Position numbers and translations under genes: made by a program | Notes under the pieces: model-generated | The model's input: only the letters and a program-made list of their open reading frames with translations | Databases searched by the model: none | What the model was told of the DNA's origin: nothing | Assembly (NCBI RefSeq): GCF_032854445.1 | Contig: NC_088295.1 | Coordinates: forward strand, 43,015,385 to 43,079,384 | DNA length: 64,000 nt | Origin: Liolophura sinensis | Taxonomy: Eukaryota; Mollusca; Polyplacophora; Chitonida; Chitonidae | Reading direction: 5' to 3' | Shown: piece after piece, positions 4,210 through 53,203 of the stretch | Position numbering within the stretch: position 1 is the first letter of the stretch | Layout of the letters: every line of letters begins with the position of its first letter

Positions 4210-6010
4210 ATTTATAATATAAGAGAGGTATACAGGAAGCATCCCAACCGTCTAATACAATATATAAGAGTGGTTTTATACACAGGAAGCATCCTAACCA
4301 CCCAATACCAGATATAAGAGAGGTATACCGGAAGTATCCCAATTACCCAATACCAAATATAAGAGAGGTATACAGGAAGAATCCCAGCCATCTAATACCA
4401 AATATAAGAGTGGTTTTATATACAGGAAGCATCCTAACCACTCAATACCAGATATAAGAGAGGTATACCGGAAGTATCCCAGTTACCCAATACCAAATAT
4501 AAGAGAGGTATACCGGAAGTATCCCAGTTACCCAATACCAAATATAAGAGAGGTATACAGGAAGAATCCCAACCATCTAATACCAAATATAAGAGAGGTA
4601 TACAGGAAGTACATCAGTAACCCAATACCAAATATAGGAAAGGTATACAGGAAGTATTCTAGTAACTCAATACTAAATATAAGAGTGGTATACCGGAAGT
4701 ATTCCAGTAACCCAATACCAAATATAAGAGTGGTATACAGGTAATATCCCACTTACTCAATCCCAAATATAAGAGTGGTATACCGGAAGTATTCCAGTAA
4801 CCCAATACCAAATATAAGAGTGGTATACGGGAAGTATCCCAGTAACTCAATACCAAATATAAGAGTTTTATACAGATAATATCCCAGTAACTCAATCCCA
4901 AATATAAGAGTGGTATCCCAGTTACTCAATCCCAAATATAAGAGTGATATCCCAGTAACTCAATCTCAAATATAAGAGTGGTATCCCAGTTACTCAATCC
5001 CAAATATAAGAGTGGTATACCGGAAGTATTCCAGTAACCCAATACCAAATATAAGAGTGGTATACGGGAAGTATCCAAGTAACTCAATACCAAATATAAG
5101 AGTTTTATACAGATAATATCTCAGTAACTCAATCCCAAATATAAGAGTGGTATACATTAATTATCCCAGTAACTCAGTACCAAATATAAGAGTGGTATAC
5201 AGGAAGTATCCCAACCACCCAATACCAAATATAAGAGTGGTATACAGGAAGTATCCCAGTAACCCATTACCAAATATAAGAGGGGTATACATGAAATATT
5301 CCAACCACCCAATACCAAATATAAGAGAGCCATACAAGACACACTCAAACCACCCAATATCAAATATAAGAGAGGTATACATGACGCACTCAAACCACCT
5401 GATACCAAATGTCAAAGAAGTATACGAGAAGCATCCCTGCCACTAAATGTAAGAATGGTATACAGCAAGCATCCCTGCCACTAAGTGTAAGAGTGGTATA
5501 CAGCAAGCATCCCTGCCACTAAATGTAAGAATGGTATACAGCAAGCATCCCTGCCACTAAGTGTAAGAGTGGTATACAGCAAGCATCCCTGCCACTAAGT
5601 GTAAGAGTGGTATACACAAGCATTTCTGCCACTAAGTGTAAGAGTGGTATACACAAGCATTTCTGCCACTAAGTGTAAGAGTGGTATACAGCAAGTATCC
5701 CTGCCACTAAGTGTAAGAGTGGTATACAGCAAGCATCCCTGCCACTAAGTGTAAGAGTGGCATACAGCAAGCATCCCTGCCACCCAACACTAAATGTAAA
5801 AGTGGTATACAGGAAGCATCCCAAACACTCGAAACCAAATATTACTGTGGTGTACAGGAAATATCCCAGCCACCTAATACCAAATATAAGACTGGTATAC
5901 CGGAAGCATGCAAGCCACCCAATACCAAATATAAACGTGGTATAGGGAAAGCATCACAGCCACCCAACCCTAAATATAAAAGTGGTATACAACAAGCATT
6001 CAAACTACTC
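4210..6010. repeat. 45-bp minisatellite with a 38-bp sub-array
   Basis: Imperfect copies of a 45-bp unit (core AAATATAAGAGTGGTATAC, then AGGAAGTATCCCAGTAACCCAAT) run for 1.8 kb. From about 5441 to 5760 a shorter 38-bp variant (TAAGTGTAAGAGTGGTATAC, then AGCAAGCATCCCTGCCAC) takes over, after which the longer form returns. Because 45 is a multiple of three, several frames stay open on both strands for 60-99 codons, giving 15-residue peptide repeats. There is no start context, splice site or domain, so I treat these as repeat artefacts. Confidence 0.95.
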
Positions 6011-13284: not shown

Positions 13285-14230
13285 ACGGACCATGAAAATA
13301 TGCAGCTGGCCTCGCCAGGTCATATCACCGGAGAAATATGCAACAAACCACTCTGTGGAGAAAAACGGGTAGAAAACCATGAAAACATGCAGCTGACCTC
13401 GCCAGGGAGAAAAACGGGCAGAGCACCGTGAAAACATGCAGCTGACCTCGCCAGGGAGAAAAACGGACTGAGCACTGTGAAAACATGCAGCAGATCTTGT
13501 TAGAGAGAAAAATGGACGCAGCACCGTGAAAACACTCAACAGGTCTCGCCAAGGAGAAAAACAGGTAGAGCACCGTGAAAACATGCAGCTGACCTCGCTA
13601 GGGAGAAAAACGGGCAGAGCACCGTGAAAACATGCAGCTGACCTCGTCAAGAAGAAAAACGAGCAGAGCACCGTGAAAACATGCATCTGGCCTCGCTAGG
13701 GAGAAAAACGGGCAGAGCACCATGAAAACATGCAGCTGACCTCGCCAGGGAGAAAAACGGACAGACCACCATGAAAACATGCAGCTGACCTCACTAGGGA
13801 GAAAAACGGGCAGAGCATCGTGAAAACATGCAGCTGACCTCGCCAAGGAGAAAAACGGGCAGAGCACCGTGAAAACATGCATCTGACTTCGCCAAGGAGA
13901 AAAAACGGGCAGAGCATCATGAAAACATGCAGCAGACCACGCCAGGGAGAAAAACGGACAGCATCGCTAAAAACAAGCAAATGACTTGGCCAAGGAGAAA
14001 AACGGGCAGACCACCGTGAAAACATGCAGCTGACCTCGCTAGGGAAAAAAAACGGACAGAGCACTGTGAAAACATGCAGCAGATCTCGTTAGGAAGAAAA
14101 ATTGACGGAGCATTGTGAAAACACGCAACAGGTCTCGCAAAGGAGAAAAACGGACATAGCACTGTGAAAACATGCAGCAGACCTCGCCAGGGAGGGAATC
14201 GGAGAGACCAGTGTGCAGAAAGCCTTGTCA

Positions 14231-14265
<35 letters not shown>

Positions 14266-14460
14266 AGGGGGCAGAACACTGGGGGACATTACAGCCGACC
14301 TCTTAAGGGAGAAAAAACGGGCAAAACACCGTCAAAACATGCAGCAAGCCTTGCCAGGGATAAAAAACGAACAGACCACTGTGAAAACATACAGCAAGCC
14401 TCGTCGGAGAGAATAAAACGGACAGAGCAGCGTGAAAACATGTTGCGTCGACTGTCAGTA
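13285..14460. repeat. 49-bp minisatellite, about 23 copies
   Basis: The unit begins GAGAAAAACGGGCAGAGCAC and continues CGTGAAAACATGCAGCTGACCTCGCCAGG. It repeats with 5-15% divergence. Since 49 is not a multiple of three, the frame rotates each copy. Long minus-strand frames (94-139 codons, motifs such as CFHGALPVFLPSEVSC) arise purely from the repeat. Confidence 0.95.
14233..14271. repeat. Poly(G) tract inside the minisatellite
   Basis: Thirty-two consecutive G residues (14233-14264), then AA and five more G. It interrupts the 49-bp array. It is a potential G-quadruplex site, and its exact length is likely unreliable in an assembly. Confidence 0.95.
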
Positions 14461-31100: not shown

Positions 31101-34100
31101 GGCTATGCACAAACTTTCATATTTATCTGGCTAAAACATAAAACATTCTTAGTTTTGGTAATGAAAGGGGTCTCCACTTTAAGTCTTTCTAGATCCTTTG
31201 ACATAAGTGTCTCTTGTTACCTCTTAGAAAGTCTCTGCCTCATGTTCTGGCTAGGCTCAGGTGTTACAGATAGAGCTCCTGTAGTGACAACTGATCCATA
31301 CAAGGCTGATCTCAGGTCCACTTTTGTGACAAGGATTTTGGCAAGACCAAATAAAACAACACAGAACAGAGATCTAGTATGTAGAATGCTGTCAACCTGT
31401 GTGGCTATATGAGTTCAAGACCAGTTTCGGTCATTTTGTCATATTAAAATGCAAGCTTTTTATGGAGAAGCTGTGACAGGGTTATATAAGCTGTTTTGTT
31501 TTAGCTGCTTTTTTAAGGGCATGTTAGTCAAAACTGAATTTAACCAAATTTACCAGTGATTTGAAATAAATGGTGTTGGAATGTTTTGCAGGCAACCAGT
31601 GGACGAGGAGGCTGGCCTATGAGTGTGTGGCTGACCCCAGACCTCAAGCCATTTTACGGAGGTACATATTTCCCACCTGACAACAGGTACTATGGACAGC
31701 CTGGCCTTAAGACCCTGCTTCACACAATCACTGAACAGGTAAGACAGTGGCTCAATTTCTTCTCCTTTTCAAATGCTTAAATGACACTTAATACATATAC
31801 ATGTATGTCTTCATAATTACTATATATTTTTTTATGGATGATAGTTAATTAGTTTGGTATTTGGACCTAGCAAAGGTAATTTCACAAGAGGGGACAAGAA
31901 AAAGGTGGGAGAGGGGCAAACACCTCAGTTCCAAGGCCAAGGGCCAAAGGGTGAAAAGTGGAGTAAAGATGTTTTTTAGCCTGTTTTTGGCACCAAAATT
32001 TTATCTTTGTTTCATTTTAAATCAGACCAATTTGAGAAAAAAAGTTGCTGGGCTTTCCAAGGACGAATCTGATCCTCCAGCCCCACTCCATTCTCTATAT
32101 CCAGCACCGATAAAGGATGTCTTGTTTTAGTGGAAGGCAAAACGAGAGAAACTGGCTGAGCAGAGTAGCGCCATCTTAGATGCCCTAGCCAAGGCAACAT
32201 CTTTGGGTGAGACAGGCAAAATACCAGGTCAAGAGGTCATTTCTAAGGGTTACAAAGCCATAGAGAAGACCTTTGATGAACAAATGGGAGGATTTGGAAA
32301 AGCCCCAAAATTTCCCCAACCAAGTAAGTATAAAGTCTACCAATAAACAACTATGTTGTATTTTAAAGACATCCATGGGTGTTCTTGATATGAGGCTAAA
32401 TGTATCAGTAGGAGGATCTCATGAGTCAATGCAGGGCACAGAATTTCGTGTTTAATTGCAGGATCTTGTACATTGATTTACTGTCTCTTGGGCTGTCAGG
32501 AATTTGTGATTTACCAAGAGCTGATACTCCTGCTGAATTAAGCCTATTAAAAACTAGGTATACCATTTCGCTGTTAAAAAAGTCGAAGTCCTAGAGAATT
32601 CTATTTCTGGAGATAAAACCACACTGACTGCATTTACCAACTTAATCTTTGTACAAAGTGTATAATTTAATCAGTACACATAGGACAATGCCCTTCTAAC
32701 ACCTTTAAATATGCAATTAAGATTATGTAGATCTCTGTTTTACGAGGTGACCATATTGTGAATCTGTTGCGTATTAAGTAAGCACCTGTTTTATGGTTCT
32801 GCAGCCATGTTGAGCTTCCTGTTGCGAGTATATGCGGGTCACTCCATGGCAGTGTTAGGGGAGAGAGCCCTGGAGATGACACTCTTCACACTGAAGATGA
32901 TGGCTAAAGGAGGCATGCACGACCATGTCGGCCAGGTAACACATCTTCACAACACTCATTGTTAATTTGTCAGATTTTTATAACAGGTAAATGAACATCT
33001 GTTGTATTCAATCTGATTGCTTACAAAGCAGCAGAGCAGGAAGTAAATTTATAGATTTTTTTGAGTATTCAGTTTATCAAACCCAGATACGAAAAGAGAT
33101 TGCACATTTACCAGATTTTCAGGATGGTAATGTTTGCACACTTTTTTTCCTTCCAGCTGTTTATTTTACAGTTTGTAGATGCGGCTTCCAATCCAGTTGA
33201 TGTGTTGATATGAGTACATGTATGTGTGTAATGTGTCTGCTGTTTTGTCAGGGATTTCATAGGTACTCCACGGATGATTTCTGGCACGTGCCTCACTTTG
33301 AGAAGATGCTGTATGATCAGGCTCAGTTGGCTGTAGTCTACTCCGAGGCATTTCAGGCAAGATGCGCTGAGCTAAATTTTGTCTACTAGTCACCAACAGC
33401 TGATTGACTGCATATATTTTGGACCCCTGAACCTTCACCCCAAAAATTTGGGAAATACACCATCCTAACATGCTTCAACCAACAGTATGAACCCATACAC
33501 CATCGTAACATGCTTCAGCCTACAGTATGAACCCATACACCATCCTAACATGCTTCAACCAACAGTATGAACCTTTACACCATCGTAACATGCTTCAACC
33601 AACAGTATGAACCCATACACCATCATAACATGCTTCAACCAACAGTATGAACCCATACACCATCCTAACATGTTTCAACCAACAGTATGAACCCATACAC
33701 CATCCTAACATGCTTCAACCAACAGTATGAACCCATACACCATTGTAACATGCTTCAACCAACAGTATGAACCCATACACCATCCTAACATGCTTCAATC
33801 AACAGTATGAACCCATATACCATGCTAACATGCTTCAACCAACAGTATGAACCCATACACCATCGTAACATGCTTCAACCAACAGTCTGAACCCATACAC
33901 CATCGTAACATGCTTCAACCAACAGTATGAACCCATACACCATCGTAACATGCTTCAACCAACAGTATGAACCCATACACCATCGTAACATGCTTCAACC
34001 AACAGTATGAACCCATACACCATCGTAACATGCTTCAACCAACAGTATGAACCCATACACCATCCTAACAGGCTTCAACCAACAGTATGAACCCAGAGAT

Positions 34101-43558: not shown

Positions 43559-46500
43559 ATGTATAGCAGTTCCATTACTTCACCAAGGCCGTCTGACCAC
43601 AGTTATGTAAAGATGCCTGGCATAACAGGTACTTCAGCATCTAGGTTACCATCCTATAAAATGACTTATAACAGTTATCGTAACACTAACACCACCACCA
43701 GTGCATTGAAAACTCCGCCCATGCAAAGGACGACCTATGGTGCCACTAGCTCAAACTACAGTCCACTGTCACGAGTTCGACCTCTGCCCTCTGGACCAGG
43801 ACCTTTGGCACCGGATGGGCGAAATAAACTTCCTTCAGATTTCACAGTGAAGTCCAGAATACGTGCTCCATCTCTAACTCGTAATGGTCCTGTAAGAGTT
43901 GACTGTAATAGTGATTGCACAAGGTCTTATTTAAATTACCAGAGTGCATCACAAAAAGGGTCATCCTCGAGTAATTTTTCCCAAAGCAGTTTACATGGAC
44001 GAAGATCAGGCAGTTTGTTAAATCTGTCTTCATTGAACTCGGACTACGATCGGAATGATCGCTTTGATCACCTTAACAACAACTCCACAACAGCCAAAGC
44101 TACTTATGACTATGGCTCTCACTCACGATCATCAAGCCGGTCAAGAATTTATGCTGATTACAGTGACACAGATACCAGTACTAAACCTTATGGTTCTAAC
44201 AGATATGGAGTGCAACGACGGAGTAGTATTGCTACCAAGGATGAATATACTCGGGGTAGTACTTTTGAGAGATCACCAGAACCAAGGGTTACAGTTACTG
44301 CAACGTATAAGTCAGATTATCCTTCTTCTGTGCGGAGAAGTTCAGTGAGAGAAAATGGTATTGTCCCTACAAACCGCAGGTTTCACGAGAAAGATGACGG
44401 AAGTTACACAGAACAGAACTTGAACAATAACCTGAGTCAGGTGTGTATGGAAATTCTTTACTGCATAGGTGTTAACTTTACTATCAGTCTCTGTAGAGAT
44501 ATATAAACACACTTTAGTAGCAGTAGCATCAGAAACAGTATGGCTGTACCGCTTTTCCAAAAAAAAAAAAAAAAAAAAGGAAAAACATAAAAAAAGGCAA
44601 TAAAACAAATCAAAGATCAAACCAATTTAATTGCAACCAACCAAGGCCCAAGCACACATATGTGCGCTGTAGACCATCAAGCACATAAAACTACAATGGA
44701 TCTATGTAAAGAATAAAAAACTCATGAAATGACTTTTGGGGCATCTCCAGTCTGGCATCCCAAGACTTCCGGGGCCTGGGCAGCCCCTGGACCCTCGCCT
44801 TTTGTGCTGGCCCTACCACTTTCAAATTGTCAATGCGCCAGAATAATCTATCAATTTCATGTCTTCTCTACAATTATAGGCATCTACCAGGCAGTGGCCA
44901 CTGTATTTTAAACTCCACATCTCTTGGTTCGTTCAGCATTGCAAGTGTAAACAGGGCATTTATCATCATGTTACCCATGATTATGTACATGTATTGGACA
45001 GTTTACTTCATGCTGTAATGCAATTTAGTTTATATTTTAATGTGTCAAAATTCTGTTATACATTTGTGGTCTTTCTTTACTCAGCTATCACTTTCCAATC
45101 GACATACCAGGGGTAAAATAGGGTTGCGTAACCTGGGCAACACGGTAAGTGACGAACATTATAGTTTGTTATAAAACAAAATGGGTGTAACAAAAATTGT
45201 TCTTAGGCATTAATCTTTTGAAAAAATGTTATGGAAAAATGATTTTGTCATGTCTACTGCTAAATGCTATAGTACCTCTAAGAAACTGTGTTCTGGATAT
45301 CATTTTATGATATTTCCTTTCACTCATAGGCATACTGCTCATGCTGGCATCCTCCCCTGCATTACGTGGAAAGATCTGCCAGAAACCTGTGAATGGTTGT
45401 GGGTTTCCCCATGGGCTTTGCCTGTTTTCCTCCCACCATAATGCTGGCCGCAGTCGTAAAAATGAAATATTCTTGAGTACGGGCTAAAATGGATGTCAGA
45501 TATGCCTTTCTCTTTCCTATGGAACTACAGGAGAAGAATGAATGATTAGCACCTTTCATCTGTATGGCACTCAACTCATACCACAATAGAAGTCTTACTT
45601 ATAAAGTGCTAGAGTTCTTTACATGCAAATTTTGCGAGGAAGTTAATAGTTAATAGGAAGTTAATACTTTTAAGGACATAAAAGAGCATTTTTGAGCGTT
45701 TTCAAATTCATTAGTTTATAGATCATGGAAATTATATATATACATGTAGTATATTTTAGCAATGTGCGCAGTTGTGATATGACAGTGAATGAAAAAAATA
45801 ATGCAACTTTATTTTTGTCATTGTGTTATTTATCCTATCAGCTCCCTGCGTTTTACCCATAATTCTGACTTGTTTTTTTTTTCAGTGTTTTATGAACTCC
45901 ATACTGCAGAGTTTAAGTAATACTAAGCCCCTTTTGGAGTACTGCTTGAATGATGAGTTCCGTTCAGAACTGACCTCCAGTAGCAGTAATGTTAAAGGAG
46001 CTCTTTTCATTGGTGAGTCCTGTTGATTTATGCTTGTTTTATTAAGACATGTTTACTGTTTTGACGAATTCACCACTATTGACATGGGTTTCTAAGCATT
46101 TGTTACAGCCTGGTACAGCAGTATTACATGTGTTTTCATCATTCTTCTCATCTTATGATCGCCTGTCTTTAACGATAGATCTGGAGTTCAATCCTGAATC
46201 AAGTCTAGCCTTGGGCTTTAACATTGGTAATCTTTGCACAAGCTCATTTGGCATGCAGCATAAGAAGAATTTATATTTGATTGGTGTTTTACATAATACT
46301 CCATAAGAATAGGCCAATTACTAGTTGGTCCAGTGTCAGTGTAATGTGCCTTAGTGGACATGGCGCTTCAGTTAAGCAGCACTAAAAATATGTTCAGCTT
46401 TAAGTGCAGCCTGGTACCAAGATACCGTTGTGGTATAACTGAAAAAATTTTGAAAGCAACATTAAATCCTGTGAAAAAAAACAAAACAATTCTCCTGTAA

Positions 46501-49500
46501 TGATGCAGACCAGATCATTTTTTCAGATTTATCATCAGTTCAAACCACTGACTCTTGAATCTGACTTGCATTTACAAGGTGCAATCATGGATATTGTCAT
46601 GTGGTTTTTCCTTATAAAAATCTAACTATGAAAAATACTACCCACGACAATCAAATAAATACATACGTGTACATGTATATTTCACAGTGTAAAGAACTAG
46701 AGATGCACTCTCAGGGTATTGTTATCGTTCTCTTGATGCTCATGTTTCAGGTTATGCTGGCCTGATGAAGTCCTTGTGGAATGAAGGCAGTGACAGCTAT
46801 GTCTCCCCAAATAACTTTAAAACCCAGATACAACGATTTGCACCTCGGTTTATGGGATACCAGTATGTTTATACACTTTATTACTTCTGCTGATTTCTCT
46901 GGAATGTATCAAAATGCTTTCATTGTTTGTTAATATTTCATTACTTGCAGCCTGTTGATAATTTGTTTTGTGTAATTAAAGGGTATGTTTAATATTACGT
47001 GAGCAGCAAAATCAAAACTATACCCAATACATTGGCTTCGTGCATATTTAGAAAATCTGTATTTTACATGAAATGCTTTTTCTAAAGCTTCTCATCACTT
47101 TATTATCTGAATATGACAGGAAACACAGTATTTAGGTGGTAGCATTTACTGAGAATCTACTGAGTTAGGTGTAGTGTGTTATGTCATGTGATGTGTGGAA
47201 GTGTGCTTAGTTGTTGTTGTATCTACAGACAGCAGGATGCTCAGGAGTTTCTGAGGTATGTGTTAGAAGGCCTCCATGAGGATGTGAACCGTGTGACCAC
47301 AAAACAGAAACACACTGTACCAGATGAGGAGGAAGAGGACAGACTGAGGTGAGTTACTTACTGTATTTGGCCACGGCTAAGGTGTTCATTCTGCTGCATT
47401 CTGAGAGTTTTGTAGATCTTACAAGGACATTTTGAGAGTTCTTTAGAAGGTAGGATGATATAACTTTCAGTACCGAAAATTAATAATTTATTTTCTGTGT
47501 TATCTTCAAAAAATGAACTTTCAGGTTGATTTTAGGGCAAATACAGTATGTCTATATTGGATATCTTTCCAATGTCTTGTGCATTTGGATGTTACCTTCA
47601 ACAACTTTGTGGAAAAAGCTTATACACAAGCTCTCCTGCTATTGAGGTCACATGTTTCAGCCTAACTGTGTGACCTAATTGCCAGTAATTCGGAATCCAC
47701 ACTAGGCTGTCTTATTGCTACTGTCAATGAAAATAATCTGCCTGTCCCCCCTCCCAAAAATGACCACTCTTGTATGCAATTTTTCATAGAATTTCAAATT
47801 AGTAGCATTTTAGTGTAAGATCCTTCATTTACTTGCTGTCAGTTATCTCTCCTCTGGTGCTGTGCTAAACCTGTTTTTATTAGCAGACATAGACATGTAT
47901 GTATATATATATACTAGTATATGTTAATATGTTGCTTGTTTACGTATGGTTTTAGTGACTCTGAAAAAGCCAAGGAATATTGGAGACGTTACCTAACAGT
48001 TGACAACAGTAAAATTGTGGGTAAGTATGGACAGTGAGACCTTGTTACACATTTATTGGAAATGTCTTAGCTGTGGTGATTATGATCATTTCATACAACA
48101 GTTGTTTCTTTATAGTGTCAATCATTCAAGACTGGCAGTTTGTTCAGGACACACTGGCTTCCTCATAAAAATGACTTGCCATTGTATCAATTAAAAATTC
48201 TCACATTTAAGTGTTTGAGGATATAACAGAGCTTGTTGCATGTGTATGCAAGCTTATGGATTCTTTTACATCTCTTGTGCATTTGCCTTCAACAGACATA
48301 TTCGTAGGCCAGCTAAAGAGTGAACTGAAGTTTGATGCCTGTGGACATAAATCCGTCACCTTTGATCCATTCTGGGATTTGTCTGTACCAATACCTAAGG
48401 TGAGTAACCCTCTCTCTCAAATTACCATTAATTTCATATTGTTTATGTTTACGCATCCCTTTTTTTTAAATACACTGTACGAAGTAAGGCGAGGTATTGT
48501 GAGAGGGGGAGGGGAAGTGTCGGTGTTGGTGTCCGGTTAAGCTTTTTATTTTTACTCCTGTATAATGGGCTCTCATTCATTGAGTGAAGGTTAAGCTTTG
48601 TTGTTTAACTCTCTTATCTAAGGTCTGGTGTGTAAATGCATATACTCGGATGGAAGGTTGAGCTTTTTTTTTTTTTTTTTTTTAAAGTTCTTGTATATTG
48701 GGCTATCATACATGGAGTGAAGGTTAAGCTTTTTTTTGTTTCCTAGTTTAAGGTATGGACATTCTAAGATGGCAGGTTAAACTATTTTTTTTAGCTTTTT
48801 TTATTTTTTTAGGCAGCCATACTTGGATCTCCAACATACAGCAATAGAAAGTGACATTTTGTTTGTGTTTTTTATATTTCTTTTTGTCTGTGTACATCTA
48901 CAAAAGGCTTACTGGTGGAACGCAAAACTGTTTAAATGGTTTTAGTTTTATAGGCTCAGTGAATGTTTTTAATAATTTTAATTGATAGACTTTCAATTCA
49001 AAACTTTATCGGTTATATGAACTTCAATTTGTTTACTGAAGTAAACACGTTCTCTAGAAATTAAGCCTCCATGCAGGGCAACAATTTCCTATATTTTTTG
49101 TTTAAATGAGATTTATGGATTTATGGCCAGATTTTTGAAGTTGAGAAAAGTTTCATGTATTGCTACAATTTTTATGCACATGCCTATCTACGTGTAGGGG
49201 AAAAAGAAGAGTAGTGGGTTTCTTTGACGATTTTACCAGATTTGTCACCATTTTCCTGTTTTGTGGACACACATTCAGATTGACTTCATTCTCTTCTCGT
49301 GTAAACACGGATTTCTACAAACTTTTCTTACATGGCTACAGTTTCTTATGCAATCACTTGTCTAGATAAGATTTTTGTCTCTCTAGCTAGTTTACCAGAT
49401 TTGTAGAGTGTAAGAATTTACCTTGGTGTATACCAGCTTATGTGGTGTACACAGTATCTGTAGAAAGCCTTCCACATCTGTATTAGTACTAAGTAGCTTA

Positions 49501-52500
49501 TTACACTGGCAGATGCATAAACCTTCCATGCAGAGAGTGACTTTTCAGCTGATTATTTGCTCAGCCAATCAGAGGGCTGCAGTGCCCATCCTTAGTATAC
49601 AGATAGCCAATCATGGGAAGCTATTTGCATATCAAAGACCATTCCAGCAAGTTGGTACTCGAACACCCCTTAGTGGAGATTTTTTTACTACCATAGCTCA
49701 ACATTTGCTCAGCCATTCACAGCTGTGGAATTGTTCATGGATTGCCACATACATTTCATAATTTGCCTATCAAAGACCAGTGCCTCAATTTTGTGCACGA
49801 ATTCCCCACAGTGATGTCTTTACCACCACAATACTTTACAACCCTGGTCTTTATTCTGATTCCATTGTCTAGTTGACTGCTATAGCATGTGAGCTGATGG
49901 GATTCTCTGAATGCCTTGTTTTTCTTTGGTGTAATGTTATAATATTATCAGTTCATTGTTGAAATGTTTGTGTGTTTGCTATTTTATTGTTTGTTGTATT
50001 TTTTTTTTTTTGGTTTTTTTTTTGTTGAAAACAGATTTCATCCATAAATATCTAGTGAACCATTGAAGAATTTAATAAATCTTTCCCCTGATTTGTCAGT
50101 GTGGGATGTTTAACTTTATCTGATGTTGTTGGGTTGTCAGGGGAAATCATGTGTGACGCTTCAGGACTGTATAAGCCTGTTCATGAAAGAGGAGGAACTG
50201 GATGACGAGGAGAGACCAGTAAGTAATGACATGAAAAACCTCATTTTAACTCTGAATAGCCTAAAATTCTGCCCATGAAAGTGCATTAGTAGAGGCAAAT
50301 AATTTTCATAAAATGTTGCTCTTGGTGCTGAAACTTACATTTTTCCTGAAGGACTTCAAACAAACCTAAAAGCACCTATATAAAACTAATAAAATTGTCA
50401 TAATCAGGCAAAGTCCAGTTTAGATGTGAGCAAAATATTAGGTCATTTACTGTGCCCAAACTAATTCACAATGCATTCCCCATCAATCAGCTGTCATGTA
50501 GTACTTGACATTGTTGACAGTCCAGAGCAAAGCAGCAATTATCATATTAATTTATTTACATTTCAGTTTCAGTTTTGTTAGTTTCATCATTATTAAGTTT
50601 ATACTTTATACTGTCTTTTGATAGTCCAGAGCAAAGCAATAATTACCATCTTCATTCATTTATATATATATATATTCAAGTGTTATTTGTTTCAATTCTG
50701 ATAGTTTCATTATTATTATGTAACTTGATATTCTCTTTTTATTTGTTTACAGAGTTGTTCAAAGTGCAAAGAAAGGAGATCATGCAAGAAAGCTTTCTCA
50801 ATCCAGAAGTTTCCTAAAATCTTGGTTCTTCATATCCTTTTGCCACTGTGTTTTTGTTCAGACGATCTTGGCTAAGCAGGCAGTCATCGTTTCTGATGGC
50901 AAATGTGTAATGTACCTGCCTCACCTTATAACTACATTTTTACTGCAGAAGCTGGTGCTTGAGACAGATTAAATGTTCTAGTAAATATCATGGTGAAGTC
51001 ATTATATAATAAGGAAATGTCATCTATAACATCTGACAGCATCATCTTAAATATTCAGCCTTCTTCAAGACTGATTTTGTTGGTAAGTGAACTGAAAACA
51101 CTGTTCAACCTGAAGCCACACCTGAAGTTATGAGTTCAAATCATGCACCTGCCTGCTTTTTACCAGGGAGAGATCGTCACTGAACTAAGAATGTTTATCC
51201 TGCATCTTCTTCAAAGTTTCAATTGGTTCAGTTTACCAGGTGTGTAGTGTGTTCATATAAAAGATGCACAGTTGGATTTTCATTCAGCAGAACAAGTATT
51301 AATATAACAATAATGTTGAATGGAGTTGTGAATATTCCTTGACAGCTGTCATATCTCAAACGTTTCTCTCAAGAAATGTATCGGCGTAAACTGACAGGAC
51401 TGGTGGAGTTTCCTGTTACGGGACTGGATTTAACTGCATTTTCAGCTGAGACGGGTGAGTTGTCCGGAATTTTCTTTCATGACCATGGCCCGAGCATCAG
51501 GCTATGGTTTGTTCTAGCTGTTGAACTAGCACCAGCAGGGTGTGAAGTTCCCCTCAGGACATCATCCACCATGTGACCTCCATTAAGTTTCCATCAGCGA
51601 CAATGTTAACGTTTAGCGCTGTAGCTCAGTCCAAAACATTCGGTAGCCAATAAGCTTTGGTGCAAAACTGGCCCAGCCTGTGAGAAAGCAGATATAAAAA
51701 TCTTGACTTAGGTTGACCGTCAAAATCTGGGCCTTTCTGTGCCCGCAGGTGGGAGGGGTGCTGACCAAAGCCAAGGGGACATCACTCGCAGCCTCATCAC
51801 CACCTGTCTCCTTGTGTCCTCTCACCCAGAATTTCAAATTTCCATCATTTTGATACCAAGCACGCACCTATACACTAAAAATCACAGGCTGGCAGCAAAA
51901 AAAGACTTTATACTCTAAAGTACACAGAATTACATTCATTCCTTATGAGAAACAGAAGAGCTGATGGCGTCCTGGTTCCATAAACACATACCTTTTTGAT
52001 TACCAGTAGTTAAAAATGGGTCGAAGGGGAATAACTCTTGCCATGAAAATTCCTCCTTTATGTGCATGTTTCATTGCTTCGATTTGGCTATATATTAGTC
52101 TTATTGCCGACACAGGTTGTGCAGTTTTTAGTACAAGTGCAGTCTTGTGGCTTTCCACCAGGTAATAACATTAAGGGCATGAAGGTAATTGTACAGTCAT
52201 CTATCCTGGTTTAATGCAAGTGGCCTGATGTCAAACAAATTGAAAAATTATAAAATGTGTAAACCATACTTTAATGTCTATTCTTGTCAGGTGGGCCAAA
52301 GATCCTGTACAACCTGTACGCTGTGTGTAACCATTCTGGAGGGACCCATTCTGGCCATTACACCGCTCACTGTAAACACCCGTATGCTGATGAGTGGAAC
52401 TACTTCAATGATAGCAGGTGAGCTCCACAGTAACTGTTAGCAATAACAGTAGCTCTTACACTGGTGAATTTTTTTTCATACAACATGATTTAATAAATAT

Positions 52501-53203
52501 ATGTTCCCACTGGTCCTTGAAAGTATTTGAATTTTGTGGAAAGTCTTTGAAAGCCTGGAAAAAAAGATTTCTTTGATGTCATTGAAGGCACTTGATTTTT
52601 CAATGTTTTTGCATTGTATTATGCTTAAATGAACCAAAACATAAGCTATTAAAGTAGTATGCATGTGAAGATTTATGCTTAAACAATGTCCTTAAAAGCA
52701 CTGGAAAACCGTTCTTCCCTTGGGTAGGAACTTTATTCACCTGTGTCAGTTATGTTGAATTTGTGTGTTAGAACACAACCTTACTGGCTTGGTTTTGTCT
52801 CAGTGTGGGAAGTTTTGTGGAGAACACGTGATTCCACCATAAATTGCAAAGTAAAATTGTCAACTAATTTCATTGGTAACACATATTCAGTACTGTGTAC
52901 GATTCATGTACATAGTGTACGTGGGAAGGTCTGCCAGCAACCTGCGGATGGTCGTGGGTTTCCCCCGGGCTTTGCCCGGTTTCCACCCACCATAATGCTG
53001 GCCGCCGTCGTATAAGTGAAATATTCTTGAGTACGGTGTAAAACACCAATCAAAAAAAAAAAACATGTACATAGTATTCAGTTTTGTGACAGATCTTTAT
53101 GATTCTTTGTTTCAGAGTAACGCTTTCCAATGGTCAGAATGCAGTATCAGCAGAGGCCTATGTCTTGTTCTATGAACTGTCCAGCCAAAGTGCCAGACTG
53201 TGA
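43559..53203 (+). CDS. USP2: USP2-like ubiquitin carboxyl-terminal hydrolase
   Basis: Twelve coding exons, phases consistent: 43559-44440, 45085-45144, 45886-46012, 46751-46862, 47229-47348, 47956-48020, 48296-48399, 50141-50218, 50753-50831, 51353-51454, 52291-52417, 53116-53203; 647 aa. Residues 1-300 are a Ser/Arg/Tyr-rich, probably disordered tail held in one exon, as in USP2. The USP domain follows. Its Cys box [20 protein letters not shown] has the nucleophile C315. [48 protein letters not shown] and [16 protein letters not shown] come next. The His box [14 protein letters not shown] has H599, and WNYFNDSR has N616/D617. The C-terminus [14 protein letters not shown] is USP2-like. These enzymes cleave ubiquitin from proteins in cytosol and nucleus. 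One zinc-knuckle cysteine is F468. Intron 9 is U12-type. Confidence 0.95.
45333..45491 (+). mobile_element. SINE family 1, 5'-truncated copy in USP2-like intron 2
   Basis: From CTGCTCATGCTGGCATCCTC through TGGTTGTGGGTTTCCCCATG and CATAATGCTGGCCGCAGTCG to CTTGAGTACGGGCTAAA; the A-rich tail is lost. Confidence 0.82.
48540..48815. repeat. Degenerate repeat with T-runs in USP2-like intron 7
   Basis: Four or five diverged copies of a 60-110 bp block, each with GAAGGTTAAGCTTTTTT, a T-run and a TTGTATATTGGGCTATCAT-type segment. T-runs reach about 22 bases near 48665. Confidence 0.6.
48816..50140. other. USP2-like intron 7, remaining part
   Basis: Unique AT-rich sequence with T-runs and no exon or mobile element that I can support. 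The acceptor before 50141 is TTGTCAG. Confidence 0.5.
50515..50740. repeat. Two diverged copies of a roughly 105-bp segment in USP2-like intron 8
   Basis: AGTCCAGAGCAAAGCA, AATTATCAT and TAGTTTCATCATTATTA recur about 105 bp apart (about 50518 and 50623), with an expanded (TA)n in the second copy. Confidence 0.65.
50832..51352 (+). other. U12-type (minor spliceosome) intron 9 of USP2-like, AT-AT ends
   Basis: The intron starts ATATCCTTTT at 50832, a full match to the U12 donor consensus. TTCCTTGAC at 51335-51343 fully matches the U12 branch consensus TTCCTTRAC. The branch A (51342) is 10 nt from the exon, inside the usual U12 window, and there is no U2-type polypyrimidine tract. Keeping the conserved LVLH|LKRFS reading frame forces the junction C|AT CTC AAA, so the intron ends in AT. 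Confidence 0.85.
52917..53063 (+). mobile_element. SINE family 1, 5'-truncated young copy, perfect 12-bp duplication
   Basis: Begins GTACGTGGGAAGGTCTGCCA, runs through CCTGCGGATGGTCGTGGG and CGCCGTCGTATAAGTGAAAT to ACACCAATC and an A12 tail. CATGTACATAGT is duplicated exactly at 52905-52916 and 53064-53075. It lies in the last intron of the USP2-like gene and is among the least diverged copies. Confidence 0.95.

Follow-up and report, generated by a model that had tools for sequence, protein, structure and literature searches.

Across more than 3000 surveyed genomes, about 3.8% of the conserved minor introns of animals have non-canonical ends; the majority of these differ from a canonical pair by a single base, AT-AA being the commonest and AT-AT the second (PMC10639083). 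The same pan-eukaryotic survey noted an enrichment of minor introns in molluscs. CENATAC is needed for the A-type (AT-AN) introns, a recognised class that includes AT-AT (PMC8280824). Experiments on the terminal nucleotides, as outlined in PMC2831892, covered all sixteen NU-AN pairs, and non-canonical ends are known to support splicing, often less efficiently (PMC3584512). A review places the optimum distance between branch site and acceptor at 11-13 nt (PMC3584512), and an intron of syntaxin-6 is listed as an AT-AC U12 intron in both fly and human (PMC2831892).

We analysed an intron with apparent AT-AT termini in a USP2-like deubiquitinase gene, lying in a window of 64 kb (the whole stretch of DNA under analysis). 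The initial annotation had taken AT-AT to be outside the known range and the non-AC ends of AT-type introns to be essentially AG; both views are at odds with the survey, in which AT-AA and AT-AT lead the non-canonical ends of animals (PMC10639083).

U12-type intron in the USP2-like gene

The segment 50832-51352 is a U12-type intron inside an intact USP2-like gene, and its letters and coordinates were reproduced exactly on recheck (Table 1). The upstream exon ends in CTTGGTTCTTC at 50831 and the intron opens with ATATCCTTTT at 50832, which agrees with the U12 5' splice site RTATCCTT. Near the 3' end, TTCCTTGAC agrees with the U12 branch consensus TTCCTTRAC, and the intron closes at 51352 with GCTGTCAT, the branch A lying 10 nt away; the downstream exon then opens with ATCTCAAACG (in a longer read, ATCTCAAACGTTTCTC) at 51353. 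The exact consensus matches and the 10-nt spacing claimed earlier are thus borne out. This spacing is slightly short against the 11-13 nt optimum, and that of the syntaxin-6 U12 intron in the same genome, 9-10 nt, is also below it.

With both strands counted, ATATCCTTTT and TTCCTTRAC occur once each in the 64 kb, where about 0.16 and 0.66 occurrences per strand, respectively, are expected by chance. The chance of finding donor and branch together at a junction defined by homology, computed under a first-order Markov model, is about 7e-10, or about 6e-9 if an 8-base donor is considered. Since the 521 nt are not a multiple of three and contain stops, the intron must be spliced out; the stops are in frame, and retention would therefore truncate the protein.

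Table 1. Coordinates of the intron, its flanking exons and the alternative splice sites in the window (a slash marks an exon-intron junction)
Feature	Position	Strand	Remarks
U12-type intron, apparent AT-AT termini	50832..51352	+	521 nt, phase 1
U12-type 5' splice site ATATCCTTTT	50832..50841	+	sole copy in window
U12-type branch site TTCCTTGAC	51335..51343	+	branch A at 51342; sole TTCCTTRAC in window
Proposed 3' splice site TGTCAT	51347..51352	+	one base off canonical CAC
Upstream coding exon	50753..50831	+	26 residues and first base of H codon; preceded by U2-type acceptor TTTACAG
Downstream coding exon	51353..51454	+	(H) and 33 residues onward; terminates at donor CGG/GTGAGT
Rival acceptor AAAC (AT-AC)	51361..51361	+	19 nt from branch A, in frame, removes HLK
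Rival GT-AG intron TTG/GTTCTT ... TTGACAG	50825..51345	+	in frame, VLH replaced by LSY

Joining 50831 to 51353 across CAT/ATC restores the His codon C/AT of the conserved USP motif ILVLHLKRFS. The product spliced in this way scores 137 bits against human USP2 in a PDB search, with an identical stretch of 13 residues, and 102.8 bits against Pfam UCH, which upholds the identity first assigned to the gene. The USP2 catalytic domain is covered in order by blocks that extend from 45106 to 53200 and include NLGNT/CFMNS and the final exon; a human USP2 catalytic-domain sequence served for exon placement only, and the PDB search did not rely on it. Near the other exons, the best donors belong to the ordinary major class, for example CCA/GTAAGT, CGG/GTGAGT and CAG/GTGAGC. 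Two USP paralogues whose matches cross the site (L009 and L012) read through it with no intron there.

The window also contains repeats. A dispersed repeat with the core GTATAAGTGAAATATTCTTGAGTACGG (at most 3 mismatches) occurs 9 times against 0 expected, at sites including 53010-53036, 11709, 20434 and 45456, and the motif is seen again in L072/L073; the repeat resembles the 3' portion of a SINE-like element. Additionally, long tandem arrays lie at 4216-5999, 13357-14442 and 33455-34095, with periods of about 45, 38, 49 and 40 bases and up to about 25 copies.

Choice of the 3' end

Only three pairs of cuts give an identical mRNA, namely 50832/51352 (AT-AT), 50833/51353 (TA-TA) and 50834/51354 (AT-AT, with the donor ATCCTTTT). 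The two slid cuts were rejected, the U12 donor consensus starting only at 50832. No equivalent cut ends in AC, as the AT-AC subtype would have at this mRNA junction, and the nearest AC end costs HLK. The initial annotation had stated that the cut could slide without ever giving AC or AG; this holds for sliding, but two nearby in-frame introns with canonical ends, AT-AC at 50832-51361 and GT-AG at 50825-51345, had been overlooked. With the donor fixed, all AC, AG, AT and AA from 51343 to 51419 were read as acceptors, and the conserved protein was obtained from 51352 only. The others shift the frame, gain or lose conserved residues, or overlap with the branch site: the AC at 51343 belongs to the branch site, and the AG at 51345, 3 nt past the branch A, would shift the frame when used with the U12 donor. 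On the strength of the letters and their translation, we consider it probable that AT-AT are the true ends, being those which best restore the protein frame and the Pfam and USP2 scores, as the earlier reading of the conserved frame had proposed. They are preferred because the UCH and USP2 scores favour them and because the donor of the GT-AG intron is very poor; against the USP domain, the two canonical in-frame alternatives score 9-16 bits lower.

An ordinary AT-AC U12 intron running to the acceptor AAAC would have canonical termini and keep the frame, but it would cut HLK from the conserved LVLHLKRFS, and the scores fall to 86.9 bits for UCH and to 121 bits for human USP2. The AC acceptors of U12-type introns are usually YAC, and AAAC is without this pyrimidine ahead of AC. 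The choice of U12 3' splice sites is reported to be error-prone, which speaks for such an end; its 19 nt spacing, however, exceeds the 11-13 nt optimum (PMC3584512), and on balance we regard this intron as improbable. Another route to AT-AC termini would be a true C at 51352, with the T stemming from a minor allele or from an error in sequencing or assembly. CAT and CAC are one base apart, and the T at 51352 rests on one assembly with one assembled copy; no second copy or haplotig of the USP2-like locus was found in the assembly, and as the locus is single copy there is none to compare at this base. Nevertheless local signs of error are absent, with an intact frame to either side, which makes such a miscalled or rare base very improbable.

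It is still less probable that the intron is a major-class (U2) GT-AG intron at 50825-51345, giving a 12-residue segment of equal length, in which the U12 signals are relics of a converting intron. Cryptic U2-type sites adjoining U12 sites are a known route of conversion (PMC3584512), the frame is kept and the ends are canonical, with the acceptor TTGACAG. Yet its donor TTG/GTTCTT matches CAG/GTAAGT at 4 of 9 positions, whereas at seven other exons the best donors reach 6-7 of 9, and the change of VLH to LSY costs 9 bits for UCH (93.5) and about 7 bits for human USP2 (130), besides which two perfect U12 signals would be left unexplained. We give least credence to dual splicing, in which the minor spliceosome would use AT-AT (VLH) and the major spliceosome the GT-AG intron (LSY), which overlaps it with a 7-nt shift and has the same length; if that scarcely credible arrangement were true, three residues of the USP core would be switched at one locus by whichever spliceosome acts.

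The intron is best explained as a minor-class (U12-dependent) A-type (AT-AN) intron that probably uses an AT acceptor at 51352 in RNA. U11, and then U6atac, would pair with ATATCCTTTT, and U12 with TTCCTTGAC; the second step would cleave after the CAT at 51352, about 10 nt beyond the branch A, and joining would restore the C/AT (His) of ILVLHLKRFS. An AT-AC intron is the most likely source of the AT end, its canonical CAC having become CAT via a single C-to-T change of the kind that A-type minor introns tolerate. This is the simplest origin, because CAT and CAC differ by one base.

Minor spliceosome and other U12-type introns of the genome

The assembly encodes U12 (132 bits), U11 (94), U6atac (100) and U4atac (86.5), all above the Rfam gathering scores, and exons of CENATAC (PF14968) are present. 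Complementarity to TTCCTT is provided by GTAAGGAA in the U12 snRNA copies, and complementarity to CCTTTT by CAAAAGGG, the 5' end of U11; U6atac contains AAGGA. Four U12 snRNA matches cluster at G000:C1:65318678-65336263, of which two are strong (132 and 130 bits) and the other two diverged (54 and 52 bits), and a further strong copy lies on C12.

Ordinary U12-type introns are also retained by other genes of the same genome in which they are expected. Syntaxin-6 (STX6) has an AT-AC intron at ETIG/IVE, with the donor ATATCCTTT, the branch TTTTCCTTAAT and a branch-to-acceptor spacing of 9-10 nt before the end TTGCAC. The U12 intron of DERL1, at FNWLCLV/IVGFAMNLM, is of the GT-AG type, with the donor GTATCCTTTT, the branch TATCCTTAAC and the end TTTCAG. 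The STX6 exon lies in L072, although a genome search with an STX6 peptide gave no match. Taken as gene content, the four minor snRNA genes, CENATAC and the conserved U12 introns of STX6 and DERL1 support the presence of a minor spliceosome in the organism. The initial annotation had deduced this from the intron and suggested a search of the genome for U11 and U12 snRNAs, which located both above the Rfam cut-offs.

In a DERL2-like gene (L061:1679 to ~2090), GGLLMT is followed by a donor GTATCCTT, and LLALFVNLV is preceded by what may be a diverged branch, CTCCTTCAC; this is probably another U12 GT-AG intron. Among the stretches of voltage-gated channel genes examined as AT-AC comparators (50 kb), no convincing U12 pair was seen, and STX6 and DERL1 served as comparators in their place.

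Comparison with described minor introns

AT-AT minor introns are already documented in animals, though uncommon, and the USP2-like case is a new example, adding one well-defined intron of this kind in a lophotrochozoan-like genome. Knowledge of minor splicing is unchanged by it, AT-AN ends being already accepted, but this deubiquitinase would be annotated wrongly by gene finders that accept only GT-AG, GC-AG and AT-AC ends.

Like the animal AT-AT U12-type introns of the survey (PMC10639083), the intron has an ATATCC donor, a TTCCTTRAC branch and a probable AT end one base from AC; no tested feature differs, the AT end being deduced here from the protein frame. With the CENATAC-dependent A-type introns (PMC8280824) it shares the AT donor and the variable last nucleotide, and the genome holds the genes for CENATAC and U4atac/U6atac. 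A comparator within the genome is the AT-AC intron of syntaxin-6, which has in common with it the donor ATATCCTTT, a TTCCTT-type branch, a spacing of 9-10 nt and phase 1, whereas the syntaxin-6 intron ends in CAC and the USP2-like intron probably in CAT.
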